From Halostagnicola kamekurae (GTDB lineage: Archaea; Halobacteriota; Halobacteria; Halobacteriales; Natrialbaceae), in NCBI RefSeq assembly GCF_900116205.1, contig NZ_FOZS01000001.1, forward strand, positions 1,302,001 to 1,366,000: a DNA stretch of 64,000 bases. Direction: 5' to 3'. A program made the translations under genes and the position numbers. The notes below the pieces were generated by a model. That model ran no database searches. It was not told where the DNA came from and saw only the letters and a list, made by a program, of their open reading frames with translations. Positions 27,397 to 32,140 of this stretch are shown here, one piece after another; within the stretch, counting starts at the first letter, position 1; every line of letters starts with the position of its first letter.

Positions 27397-28215
27397 CTAG
27401 TTGAGGATCGACTGGGTGACGGTCGCGATCTGGCCGTTGTCCGCCTCTCGGAGCCGGTCGTCGCCGATCTTCAGACGGAGGCGCGGTCGACCGACGTCGA
27501 TCGGGACCTTTTCGGTGTCGATGAGGCCCATATCCTCGAGTTTCGTCTTGGTGCGCGAGAACGTCGCCTTCGATGCGATGCCCACGTCCTCGCCCCACTT
27601 GCTGATGTCGTACAGCAGCGCCTCGTTTTTGGCGGCGACGACGAGTGAAATCGTCACCTCGTCGAGCCCGTCGCCGTCGCCGCGAGCCGTCTCGAGGGAG
27701 TTCAAAATCGCGGTGAAGTCCGCTTCGGCTTCGGGGCTGATCTCCTCGGAGAGCGTTTCGCGAACGTCGGTGATCGGCGGCGTCCGGAGCTTGAACTGGT
27801 CGGCGTTCTCCCAGCGGGTTTCGTAGGCCGAGAACGTTTCCTCGACGAATTCCTCGTCGTCGGTGACAAGCCCCCCGACGCGGTCGCCGGCGTGGACGAC
27901 GGCGATGACGCGGTCTCCCGTGAGACAGAGGGAATTTTCCGGGGTCTCGCCGAGCGTCCGGAGCGCGAGGGCACCGTCGCTGATGAGGTCGGCGGCGTTC
28001 GACGCGATGATGAAGTCGCCCATGACCTCCTTGAGCGTCTGTTCGTTGGCGAGCATCTTGACCGATGGCACCGAACCGTCGAAGTCGGTCGCGACCGAGA
28101 CGAACTCTTCGATCGCGTCCCGCGATGGGTTCACCATATAAACGTCTCCACTCGCATCCTCGAGAACGCTTCTGAGGATATCGTCAATCTGATGATTGAG
28201 TAAATTCGAGGCCAT
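27397..28215 (-). CDS. tbsP: Transcriptional regulator TbsP
   Basis: A 272-residue haloarchaeal regulator (formerly DUF5821), starting MASNLLNHQIDDILRSVLED. The N-terminal ~190 residues form a sensor-like domain (DVYMVNPSRDAIEEFVSVA), and the C-terminal ~60 hold a winged helix (ASKATFSRTKTKLEDMGLIDTEKVPID). In Haloferax volcanii TbsP acts with TrmB on gapII and influences the choice between glycolysis and gluconeogenesis. I chose the ATG at 28215 because a TATA-like box (28238-28251 on the opposite strand) sits about 30 bases upstream, giving a leaderless transcript; 26 extra codons are open upstream. Confidence 0.88.
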   Translation of the reverse strand: MASNLLNHQIDDILRSVLEDASGDVYMVNPSRDAIEEFVSVATDFDGSVPSVKMLANEQTLKEVMGDFIIASNAADLISDGALALRTLGETPENSLCLTGDRVIAVVHAGDRVGGLVTDDEEFVEETFSAYETRWENADQFKLRTPPITDVRETLSEEISPEAEADFTAILNSLETARGDGDGLDEVTISLVVAAKNEALLYDISKWGEDVGIASKATFSRTKTKLEDMGLIDTEKVPIDVGRPRLRLKIGDDRLREADNGQIATVTQSILN

Positions 28216-28235
28216 CTGTGTACCGAAGTAAAAGG

Positions 28236-28252
28236 ATGCGCCATACTTAATT
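28236..28252 (-). promoter_or_regulatory. TATA-like promoter element of tbsP
   Basis: Read on the minus strand, AAAATTAAGTATGG lies about 26-37 bases before the ATG at 28215, the normal distance for a leaderless haloarchaeal promoter. A short palindrome ACCAA-ATA-TTGGT lies further upstream at 28289-28301 and could be an operator. Confidence 0.5.
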
Positions 28253-28535
28253 TTGTTGGCCGTTCGCACAGGATAAGTTACACTCTCAACCAAATATTGG
28301 TAATTTTTATCGGTCAGTGCTTCGTTCTACCCGAAATAGTCTTAAATGAGAGAGAAACCTGAAGACCAGTCCTCGTCGACAACGGAATGATAAGGTACAA
28401 ACACATATCGGTCCTAGCTTGGCACCCCCCACCCATACGGCGACTGAAACTCCTGGCCGGTCACCAGCTATACTGATTGGAGGTAAAGATAGTAATGGTA
28501 ATTACTATATACAAGGAACGGATACTGCTAGCTGT

Positions 28536-28661
28536 ATGGGTGTTATACATGATCTGCGTCGCATCGGTCGTGGTAGAAAAACGGACGTAACCGACGGTAT
28601 GTTTCCGGACACGCTATCGACGCTGCAGGCAAAGCGAGTGAGTACCTACGGCGGACCGTAA
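28536..28661 (+). CDS. Possible 41-residue leaderless small ORF
   Basis: MGVIHDLRRIGRGRKTDV at its start, ending STYGGP one base before the CHAT gene's stop codon on the other strand. A TATA-like TACTATATAC at 28503-28512 is about 28 bases upstream of the ATG. The frame can be extended to 28419, giving 80 residues. The peptide is basic, unlike most haloarchaeal proteins, and has no recognised relatives. Confidence 0.3.
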   Translation: MGVIHDLRRIGRGRKTDVTDGMFPDTLSTLQAKRVSTYGGP

Positions 28662-30734
28662 TCACGTTTCATCCAGATTTTCTGATAGTTGTTCGGACCA
28701 GTAGACGTCCCCGTCGTAGATCACCGACGCGTTCGCTTCCGAGAGAAAGGCAGGGAGTTCGTCCGCCGAGAGCAGGAGCCTCGACGGGGATCCACAGAGG
28801 TAGGCGTTGTCGTTTCCGTCCGCGTGCGGAAAGTAGTACGAACCGGTGTCCCCGGTCGAATAACACTCGATAGAGAGGAGGTACTGCTCGTCGTCGACCA
28901 GCTCCATCGTGATGGTCGTCGGGTACTGCTGTTCTCCCTGCGAGAGCGAGTGGGTGCCGTCGCCGACGACCGCGTAGTCTTTCCCCATCATGATACGGCG
29001 TCGCGCGAGGTCCATGGCGCGTTCGATGCTGAACCCGTGTACGAGCAACGTCGCGAACATCGAGCCGACTTTGACGGCGTGGTCGTTCAACACCTTCTGA
29101 AGCGTCACCGCGCCGGCGACGCTACCGTTCTCGACGAGTTCGAGCCCCTCGTAAAACGAGCCACACGCGTTCAGGAAAAACGTCTGCGCGTTACAGGTCT
29201 CGATCGTACTCGTCGAAAACGTGCCGTCCGGACAGCACAGGCCGTCCGTTTCGCAGTGGCCGATGAAGTGGACGAAATCGTGTTCGGCCTCGAAGACGCG
29301 AGCGAGCTCGCCGGTCGTGAGCGACTCCTCGACGGAGAGTTCGATGGGGAGTGCGTCCGCACGCTCCCGGTAGATCTTCGCCACCGATTCGTGTTCGCCG
29401 GCCATCTCGGGATCGTTCAACACGACGGCGATCGACGATGCGTCGCTCCAGCGCTCGAGGTACTGAAGGCGGTTTTGGTAGGCCTCTGGCATCGACTTGA
29501 AGACATCGATCGGGACGCCGTCGGCGATCCAGCCGTGGACGCATCCGCTCTGTAGTTCCGGCTTGACGATGTCGATGGACGGAATCTGTCCACCGGATCG
29601 AGTATCGGCAGTTCCGCTCCGGTAGAAATCGTCGAGCGATCGCTCGACGAGTTCCTGTTCGCACAGTTCGGACCACTTGGGCATCGAGATCAGACTCATC
29701 CGATCGAGCAGGAACGGCAGCGTCTCGACGGTGTCCGGCCCGGCCTCGACGTACGTCGAGAGGTGCCAGTCGGGGAGCCGGTGTTCGATCGTTTCGTAGG
29801 GGATCTCGAGATAGCTCGCGAGTCGCTCTCGAATCGTCCCCGCGTACAGGCGGTCGCTGTCGATCTCGAGGGCCTCGAGCACGTCCAACTCGGAGAGGGA
29901 CGTGCTGAACGGACCGGCGTTTCGAACCAGACAATCGAGGAAGAACACTTTGCGGAGCAACTGCTCGACCTCGCCCTCGAGAGCGGGCATCGACGGCAAC
30001 GGCACTGACACGTCGTGGCCCTCAAGGGAGAGTCGCGCGGGTTCGTGCGCACTCGTCTCGACGGATGCCTGGAGATAGTACGCCAGCGGAGCGACGACGA
30101 ACAGGTCCTCGTACCGCGGCGGCACGGTGATGGTGATCCCGGATTCGGTCGCTCTGCTCGTGACCGTCGACGGGATCTCGAGCGTCTGGCCCGTCTCGAT
30201 TCGAGGCGGATGGCCGCGAAGGGACGGGTAGGATCGATCGGGGCTGGTGGTCTTCTGAGAGACGTGGAGGTGGCTTATCGCGCTCGCGAGGCCGCTCGGT
30301 GAGTCCGGTATCGTGATCGTGTCGGCCGGGATTTCGTGTCGGCTCCGAAATCCGAGGACGAGTCGCGACCGCTCCGGGAACGAAACGACGACCGTTTCGA
30401 TGTCGTCGGTCCGGTGAATCGTGGCCGCACCCGAGAACCGAAGATACGTCTTAATTCGCGTGTCGATATCGACGATGTATTCGCCCGGCGCGAGCGAGAG
30501 TGGTTCGCCGTGCGGATCGAGTTCGTGTTGGGTCCCGGAACTGAGATTCGAGGCGTAGACGACGGCGTGTGGTAGTCGGAGCTGCTCGGCCGTGACGACC
30601 ACCGTTTCGTCGACGGGTCTGTTGATTCCGGGACTCGAGTCCGCGATTTCGAGGGCCTCTCCTTCGACGACGATCGTCGCGTTGTCGGCGTCTGTCACTC
30701 GAAGCCCGTCGTCGACGGCGTCCCACCGCAGCAT
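28662..30734 (-). CDS. CHAT-domain (caspase-like) protein
   Basis: A 690-residue protein with no signal peptide. The C-terminal third is a CHAT-type peptidase: the His motif is HDFVHFIGHCETDG with candidate catalytic His493, and the Cys motif is FFLNACGSFYEG with Cys524, in the order and context of the CHAT family; GSVAGAVTLQKVLNDHAVKVG and the following helix fit the rest of the fold. The N-terminal ~480 residues are beta-rich (1-240) then helical, unrecognised, and probably regulatory. No TPR repeats and no obvious partner or target gene lies beside it; glyA is divergent. The ATG at 30734 is preferred to a TTG at 30737. Proteolytic activity is inferred, not shown. Confidence 0.75.
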   Translation of the reverse strand: MLRWDAVDDGLRVTDADNATIVVEGEALEIADSSPGINRPVDETVVVTAEQLRLPHAVVYASNLSSGTQHELDPHGEPLSLAPGEYIVDIDTRIKTYLRFSGAATIHRTDDIETVVVSFPERSRLVLGFRSRHEIPADTITIPDSPSGLASAISHLHVSQKTTSPDRSYPSLRGHPPRIETGQTLEIPSTVTSRATESGITITVPPRYEDLFVVAPLAYYLQASVETSAHEPARLSLEGHDVSVPLPSMPALEGEVEQLLRKVFFLDCLVRNAGPFSTSLSELDVLEALEIDSDRLYAGTIRERLASYLEIPYETIEHRLPDWHLSTYVEAGPDTVETLPFLLDRMSLISMPKWSELCEQELVERSLDDFYRSGTADTRSGGQIPSIDIVKPELQSGCVHGWIADGVPIDVFKSMPEAYQNRLQYLERWSDASSIAVVLNDPEMAGEHESVAKIYRERADALPIELSVEESLTTGELARVFEAEHDFVHFIGHCETDGLCCPDGTFSTSTIETCNAQTFFLNACGSFYEGLELVENGSVAGAVTLQKVLNDHAVKVGSMFATLLVHGFSIERAMDLARRRIMMGKDYAVVGDGTHSLSQGEQQYPTTITMELVDDEQYLLSIECYSTGDTGSYYFPHADGNDNAYLCGSPSRLLLSADELPAFLSEANASVIYDGDVYWSEQLSENLDET

Positions 30735-30755
30735 CAATTCGTTGAATGTTATTCG

Positions 30756-30770
30756 GTTAATTTAGTTGTA
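30756..30770 (-). promoter_or_regulatory. TATA-like promoter element of the CHAT gene
   Basis: On the minus strand CTAAATTAACCGAAT lies about 22-36 bases before the ATG at 30734, suitable for a leaderless transcript. The glyA promoter lies about 90 bases to the right on the other strand. Confidence 0.45.
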
Positions 30771-30847
30771 TCGAGTTAACAGAATACGTTCATTTGTCAG
30801 CACCTACCGTGGTACCGGGAACCCGGCAGCGACCTCACTTGCCGAGG

Positions 30848-30862
30848 AAAGGTACACTTATG
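30848..30862 (+). promoter_or_regulatory. Promoter element of glyA that decides its start
   Basis: AAAGGTACACTTATGG, a BRE/TATA-like run about 26-38 bases before the ATG at 30887. It overlaps an in-frame ATG at 30860, so that codon would lie upstream of the transcript; this supports the start at 30887. Confidence 0.5.
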
Positions 30863-30886
30863 GAGCATCCAATCACGGGATTTACT

Positions 30887-32140
30887 ATGGAACACGACCA
30901 CGTCCGGGCAGTCGATCCCGCCGTGGCCGACGCCCTCGAGAACGAGGTCGATCGGCAGCGGTCGTCGCTTCAAATGATCGCGAGCGAGAACCACGTCAGC
31001 AAGGCGGTCCTCGACGCGCAGGGCAGCGCCCTGACGAACAAGTACGCCGAGGGATACCCCGGCGAACGCTACTATGGCGGCTGCGAGTACGCCGACGAGG
31101 TAGAACAGCACGCAATCGACCGCGCGACGGAACTCTTCGGCGCCGAGCACGTCAACGTCCAGCCCCACTCGGGCACGCAGGCCAACCAGGCCGTCTACTT
31201 CGCAATGCTCGAGCCCGGTGATAAGATCCTCTCGCTCGATCTGACCCACGGCGGCCACCTCAGTCACGGCCACCCGGCGAACTTCGTGGGCCAACTCTAC
31301 GACGTCGAGCAGTACGAGGTCGACCCCGACACCGGCTATCTCGACTACGAGGGACTGGCCGAGCAGGCCGAGGAATTCGAACCCGACATCATCGTCTCGG
31401 GTTACTCCGCGTACCCCCGCGAGATCGAGTGGGAGCGCATTCAGGAGGCTGCCGACGCGGTCGACGCCTACCACCTCGCGGACATCGCTCACATCACGGG
31501 CCTCGTCGCCGCCGGCGTCCACGACTCGCCGGTCGGCATCGCTGATTTCGTCACCGGATCGACCCACAAGACGATCCGCTCCGGTCGCGGCGGCATCGTC
31601 ATGACGCGCGAGGAGTACGCGGACGGCATCGACTCGGCGGTGTTCCCCGGCGGACAGGGCGGCCCCCTCATGCACAACATCGCCGGCAAGGCCGTCGGCT
31701 TCAAGGAAGCCCTCGAGCCCGAGTTCGAAGACTACGCAGAGCAAACGGTCGCCAACGCGAAGGCGCTGGGCGAGAGCCTCGCCGACAACGGCTTCTCGCT
31801 CGTCTCCGGCGGCACCGACAACCACCTCGTGCTCGTCGACCTCCGTGAGAGCCACCCCGACACCTCGGGTGGCACCGCCGAAGAGGCCCTCGAGGCCGCG
31901 GGCATCGTCCTCAACGGGAACACGGTACCCGGCGAGACGCGCTCGGCGTTCGACCCCTCGGGCATCCGCGCCGGCACGCCCGCGCTGACCACCCGCGGCT
32001 TCGACGAGGACGACTGCCGAACCGTCGGCGATCTGATCGCCCGCGTCGTCGAGAGTCCGGACGACCAGAACGTTCTCGAGGAGGTCCGCGAGGAAGTCGA
32101 AACGCTGTGTGCGGAGAACCCGCTGTACGAAGACGAGTAA
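30887..32140 (+). CDS. glyA: Serine hydroxymethyltransferase
   Basis: A 417-residue PLP enzyme that converts serine and a tetrahydrofolate to glycine and methylene-tetrahydrofolate. Key texts are LQMIASENHVS, NKYAEGYPGERYYGGCEYAD, and the PLP lysine in TGSTHKTIRSGRGG. Start MEHDHVRAVDPAVADAL matches haloarchaeal GlyA; earlier ATGs at 30860 and 30794 lie in or before the promoter. folD, the next enzyme of the one-carbon pathway, lies 2 kb downstream on the same strand. Confidence 0.95.
   Translation: MEHDHVRAVDPAVADALENEVDRQRSSLQMIASENHVSKAVLDAQGSALTNKYAEGYPGERYYGGCEYADEVEQHAIDRATELFGAEHVNVQPHSGTQANQAVYFAMLEPGDKILSLDLTHGGHLSHGHPANFVGQLYDVEQYEVDPDTGYLDYEGLAEQAEEFEPDIIVSGYSAYPREIEWERIQEAADAVDAYHLADIAHITGLVAAGVHDSPVGIADFVTGSTHKTIRSGRGGIVMTREEYADGIDSAVFPGGQGGPLMHNIAGKAVGFKEALEPEFEDYAEQTVANAKALGESLADNGFSLVSGGTDNHLVLVDLRESHPDTSGGTAEEALEAAGIVLNGNTVPGETRSAFDPSGIRAGTPALTTRGFDEDDCRTVGDLIARVVESPDDQNVLEEVREEVETLCAENPLYEDE

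Follow-up and report, generated by a model that had tools for sequence, protein, structure and literature searches.

A predicted CHAT-type protease family of haloarchaea, often encoded beside regulator genes

The gene at positions 28662–30734 (minus strand) of the window, i.e., the whole stretch of 64,000 nucleotides of Halostagnicola kamekurae DNA analyzed here, encodes a protein that is CHAT-like by fold and motif and lies outside the curated CHAT model, with an N-terminal module and partner genes of its own. The fold, the intact catalytic dyad, the spread of the family, its synteny, its pairing with partners and the link between partner and dyad were all computed. In the reading that we favor, to which we give a probability of about 45%, the protein would be a catalytically competent clan CD CHAT endopeptidase of an unmodelled haloarchaeal family, regulated in a two-gene module together with a signaling or transcription protein.

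The open reading frame starts with the ATG at 30734 and encodes 690 amino acids. As the first-pass annotation had claimed, a His motif (FVHFIGHC, His493, codon at 29256–29258) precedes a Cys motif (FFLNACGS, Cys524, codon at 29163–29165) at a distance of about 30 residues, the exact value being 31. The closest named relative, from Halostagnicola sp. A56, is 96% identical. Searches of Pfam, NCBIfam, PADLOC and the PDB sequences returned no match for the protein, including its N-terminal half, which had likewise gone unrecognized at first reading; the PDB sequences were searched with both the single protein and a profile, and nothing meaningful was matched. The Pfam CHAT model (PF12770) did not reach its cut-off with the window protein and found no match when scanned against the window's whole genome. 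Weak matches to this model were obtained for 24 of 71 relatives (best E 5.7e-4), while Peptidase_C14 is absent from the families listed for the 71 members at E values up to 10.

The AlphaFold model built with the 71 relatives has a mean pLDDT of 89.4 and a pTM of 0.89. The top five matches of this model in a Foldseek search of the PDB are all to the SAVED-CHAT filament (E 1e-9 to 2e-8, the best being 8tl0 at 1.4e-9); separase (5fby, 1.8e-6), gingipain, Csx29 (8eey, 6.6e-4) and caspase-4 (1.3e-3) are also matched. In the predicted model, His493 stands directly past strand 487–491 and Cys524 directly past strand 518–522, as clan CD requires. Since TM-scores against CHAT structures over the whole chain are low (0.2 to 0.3) and the output table gives no aligned residues, the evidence for the fold consists of the E-values and the position of the dyad. 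The original call had been made dependent on a caspase-like fold in the prediction and on conservation of the His and Cys residues: the fold was found, and within the orthologue group both residues are invariant (71/71 members of alignment A1). Taken together, this conservation and the caspase-like fold of the model indicate that the His/Cys motif is not a chance occurrence.

Three parts can be distinguished along the chain, all encoded on the minus strand. The CHAT caspase-like domain, delimited by the Foldseek matches and by the weak Pfam CHAT matches in relatives, extends over about aa 387–600 (28935–29576) and is followed by a C-terminal domain (aa about 600–690; 28665–28937), which is ordered in the model and contains the nearly invariant W679. 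The N-terminal module (aa 1–380; 29595–30734), which reaches a pLDDT of 89.8 when predicted alone, consists of a beta-rich section (1–130), a mixed alpha/beta section (131–250) and a helical section (251–375); residues R173, P205, L260, R271, P321, and W323 are invariant in alignment A2. A fold search of the PDB with these 380 residues gave weak matches, mostly to sugar-cleaving enzymes through the beta-rich part. As for a TPR or SAVED sensor domain, the N-terminal half contains no Pfam domain, and its weak fold matches are mostly to beta-sandwiches.

Among the high-quality genomes sampled from the class Halobacteria, 179 of 194 (92%) contain the family, and relatives occur in 89/100 related genomes. 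The fold and the dyad bear out the original proposal of a CHAT-type caspase-like protease of haloarchaea, which proves to be widespread among them. There are between 1 and about 13 copies per genome, some of the counted matches being fragments of a single copy. Sampling of the phylum showed the family in Halobacteria and, beyond this class, only in four genomes belonging to one further taxonomic family (L222–L225, f25); these four loci show the N-terminal plus CHAT layout, and one of them is without the dyad. Besides the window gene, its genome encodes a second member of the family, which is linked to a gene for a Cdc6-like ATPase (L031:7943-11230; G000:C2). No Pfam, NCBIfam or PADLOC model names the family. 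Plasmid copies exist, mostly annotated as "hypothetical protein", once as "caspase family protein" and once as "CHAT domain-containing protein", which indicates that automatic annotation had already glimpsed parts of the family.

The window gene belongs to a conserved block. Downstream and on the same strand lies tbsP (27397–28218; NF047393 equivalog, 1.1e-122), which encodes a transcriptional regulator, our proposed partner, and adjoins the CHAT gene class-wide; on the other side, the divergent plus-strand neighbor conserved in synteny is glyA (30863–32140; serine hydroxymethyltransferase, PF00464, 1.6e-152), separated from the CHAT gene by a region common to both (30735–30862), as read from the sequence. 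The order and orientation of glyA, CHAT gene and tbsP are kept among the window's orthologues across the class with few exceptions. These neighbors and the AT-rich spacer had been correctly recognized at the outset, the spacer (28219–28661) measuring 443 bp and having a lower G+C content. The CHAT-tbsP gap is usually 350–550 bp, and an alignment of 21 species reveals short conserved non-coding blocks just past the CHAT stop codon and just upstream of tbsP; these blocks could be a promoter, a terminator or a small RNA, and Rfam gave no match with the spacer. The long gap and the conserved upstream block that tbsP has to itself argue against a tight operon of the two genes.

Scanning the neighbors of the paralogues revealed three types of partner. 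TbsP, with its TbsP_N and HTH_TbsP_C domains (Pfam), is encoded downstream and codirectionally in 109/199 distinct copies; DUF7504 (PF24336) is found directly upstream in 32/199, and a Cdc6-like AAA+ ATPase, with AAA_16 and Cdc6_lid domains and weak winged-helix matches (Pfam), directly upstream in 6/199. Measured between the edges of matched domains, the distance from an upstream DUF7504 to CHAT is 12–154 bp in 31 of 33 cases, and that from the upstream Cdc6-like gene 79–91 bp in 6; in one scanned case DUF7504 is fused to HalOD1. In two TbsP-rich genomes, TbsP is encoded less than 1 kb from 4/11 and 5/9 CHAT genes (P 5e-6 and 5e-8 under random placement). For DUF7504 in copy-rich genomes, the corresponding counts are 7/8 and 4/6 CHAT genes (P 2e-13 and 1e-7). 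These are values that would be inflated if the pair were duplicated as a unit; such joint duplication is itself a sign that CHAT gene and partner move together. TbsP has been duplicated along with CHAT paralogues, as pairs. On a tree of 143 copies, the partner type changes 18 times, as compared to 61.6 times when labels are shuffled; dividing the tree at its midpoint leaves every TbsP-linked copy in the same half. Two genomes of one genus (G181 and G219, g79) have 16 and 23 TbsP_N genes, several of them adjoining CHAT paralogues, against one or two in six other genomes tested.

The first-pass annotation had described the gene as an orphan and had suggested a stand-alone protease or a single-protein system. 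The comparison of homologous neighborhoods which it proposed gave the opposite picture: this is a large family whose members mostly have a regulator gene linked to them, the paralogues being associated with TbsP, DUF7504 or the Cdc6-like ATPase, so that "orphan" is wrong, and neither the class-wide glyA-CHAT-tbsP block nor these links support a protein acting by itself. The conserved block and the paralogue links, which for TbsP and DUF7504 are far above chance, make tbsP a credible partner rather than an incidental neighbor. On the other hand, glyA is linked as well, and part of the block may therefore be plain synteny.

In the flanking sequence covered, 42 of 118 copies sampled without selection for the motif have no recognized partner, which counts against the two-gene reading. 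Four unlinked paralogues (L042, L062, L164, and L168) have in common a small gene about 250–430 bp downstream, which is perhaps a fourth partner type, and three of the four also share another gene upstream. In this set of 118 copies, which was not selected by motif although divergent copies were deliberately sought, the dyad is kept in all 76 partner-linked copies vs. 29/42 unlinked ones (Fisher P 4e-7, kinship being ignored); a first count of 199/199 copies with the dyad predates the sampling of divergent copies, some of which are without it. The 13 remaining unlinked copies retain the N-terminal module but no longer have one or both residues of the dyad, so that some family members may have roles other than catalysis. 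That the window protein is itself such a catalytically dead scaffold, its dyad being a relic, is nevertheless extremely unlikely, since all partner-linked copies, including those of its own group, keep both residues. In one locus (L202:4622-11540; G014:C1, about 875600–882540), three tandem family members have both catalytic residues replaced, the His site reading VGE and the Cys site VPD, APN or APT, and still match the N-terminal module well, forming a pseudo-protease array. Cys501 is present even in copies devoid of the dyad and is probably structural.

As to how such a protein might work, we infer proteolysis, gating by the N-terminal region, and a role of TbsP as substrate or regulator. 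The N-terminal module (aa 1–380) would bind a partner, a ligand or a substrate and would gate the CHAT active site; upon a trigger, the protease would cut a target, the simplest candidate being the linked regulator or a factor under its control, with consequences for gene expression or metabolism. In the window's lineage, the part of the partner would fall to TbsP, and in the paralogues to DUF7504/HalOD1 or the Cdc6-like ATPase. A precedent is offered by Csx29 (TPR-CHAT), which cuts the sigma-factor inhibitor Csx30 and thereby relieves the sigma factor (PMC10028731). By analogy, a regulated protease controlled by its signaling partner, or cutting it, is most likely. TbsP and TrmB are reported to co-regulate gapII and to influence motility and biofilm formation in Haloferax (PMC13286277), and tbsP mutations to suppress the loss of trmB (PMC11834397), so that a protease that targets TbsP or works together with it would be part of the control of central metabolism.

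The same gene arrangement could reflect control of transcription only, in that the partner would regulate the CHAT gene locally or read a shared signal, the protease being a stress or housekeeping enzyme with unrelated targets. TbsP is a DNA-binding regulator adjoining the CHAT gene, regulators often control the genes next to them, and the long intergenic region with its conserved non-coding blocks would suit this explanation. However, the position of the partner relative to CHAT differs among the module types, being upstream in two and downstream in the third, and DUF7504 alone has no recognized DNA-binding domain in the proteins scanned; we therefore consider this explanation possible but, on balance, unlikely. 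An operator common to the TbsP-linked loci was also considered and rejected, the DNA dyads near the CHAT gene being partly glyA coding sequence and partly a result of shared ancestry.

The DUF7504-linked form of the proposed module can be followed in Haloferax, to which we assigned genomes by inference: the H. volcanii pitA and glpK primers (PMC12366361), with up to two mismatches allowed, match 15 and 12 genomes of one genus. Exactly one family member occurs in each of the 15 genomes, with DUF7504 directly upstream in 15/15, and the Haloferax copies are among those with His493 and Cys524. In the two Haloferax genomes tested, TbsP is encoded by a single gene on a contig other than that of the CHAT gene; TbsP is thus kept without an adjoining CHAT gene and needs no linked protease. 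At three Haloferax loci examined in full, a TrmB-family regulator and a HalX response regulator are encoded near the CHAT gene (L226:10513-12369 and L228:6462-8312). This TrmB-like neighbor is not TrmB itself, as it fails the equivalog cut-off (148.5 vs. 500 bits). The hypermotility gene HVO_2248, whose product has no known domains, was weighed as a possible Haloferax copy and rejected because its published neighbors differ from those of the CHAT locus.

Extracts of H. volcanii have a high basal caspase-like activity (LEVDase, VEIDase, and IETDase, inhibited by zVAD-fmk) to which no gene has been assigned, archaeal genomes being said to have no clear caspase homologues (PMC3615174). With an intact caspase-like site, a presence in 92% of the class genomes and a single copy per Haloferax genome, the family is a candidate for part of this gene-less activity. 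We hold it quite unlikely that the CHAT protease is a main source of it, as a constitutive Asp-directed enzyme: the caspase-like fold, the intact dyad and the single copy in 15/15 genomes would fit, but P1 specificity is unreadable from sequence, a preference for Asp is not a given among CHAT and separase enzymes, and the authors themselves raised the caspase-like sites of the proteasome as an alternative source (PMC3615174). Moreover, caspase-like activity is also cited for Sulfolobus, Pyrococcus, and Methanosarcina (PMC3615174), whereas the search of the sampled phylum showed the family in no genomes beyond Halobacteria and four others. A bolder version, still less probable, would place the missing haloarchaeal caspase in this family, i.e., a near-universal CHAT protease, with one copy in Haloferax, giving most of the LEVD/VEID cleavage, held in interchangeable two-gene modules whose partner times the cuts in normal physiology.

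Returning to the regulated two-gene module, the repeated pairing with regulators suggests that protease-based signaling may be wider in archaea than recognized, and DUF7504 gains a candidate role. Comparison with known systems raises the question of a role in antiviral defense or cell suicide, like that of SAVED-CHAT or TPR-CHAT effectors, since the closest solved relatives are CRISPR-linked CHAT effectors, some paralogues are on plasmids and several are paired with possible sensors. We judge this very unlikely for the window gene, which stands in vertical, class-wide synteny with housekeeping genes: its immediate neighbors across the class are tbsP and glyA and not CRISPR or defense genes, PADLOC run on the window protein itself gave no match, and a search for virus and phage copies found none.

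The window protein resembles the CHAT peptidases of PF12770 in the motif order (H-x3-H ... L-x-A-C), in the fold and in having the His after one strand and the Cys after the next, but differs in the missing PF12770 match, the N-terminal module and the partners. Like the SAVED-CHAT filament protease (8tl0), its best Foldseek match, it would combine a sensor region and CHAT in a single chain; unlike it, it has no recognized SAVED domain and no CRISPR neighbor, and its beta-rich and helical N-terminus has no confident solved relative. Separase (5fby, C50) is also matched in the fold search, whereas the window gene has no cohesin context. Caspases and metacaspases (C14) share the clan CD fold, but the window protein matches no C14 profile used; in an earlier survey, putative metacaspases were found in 5/114 archaeal genomes (PMC3501461). 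In Csx29 with Csx30 (8eey; PMC10028731), a CHAT protease likewise has a partner gene whose product acts in the control of transcription, although the window protein has neither recognized TPR repeats nor Cas7-11, and where Csx30 is a sigma-factor inhibitor, TbsP is a DNA-binding regulator, proposed as target by analogy.
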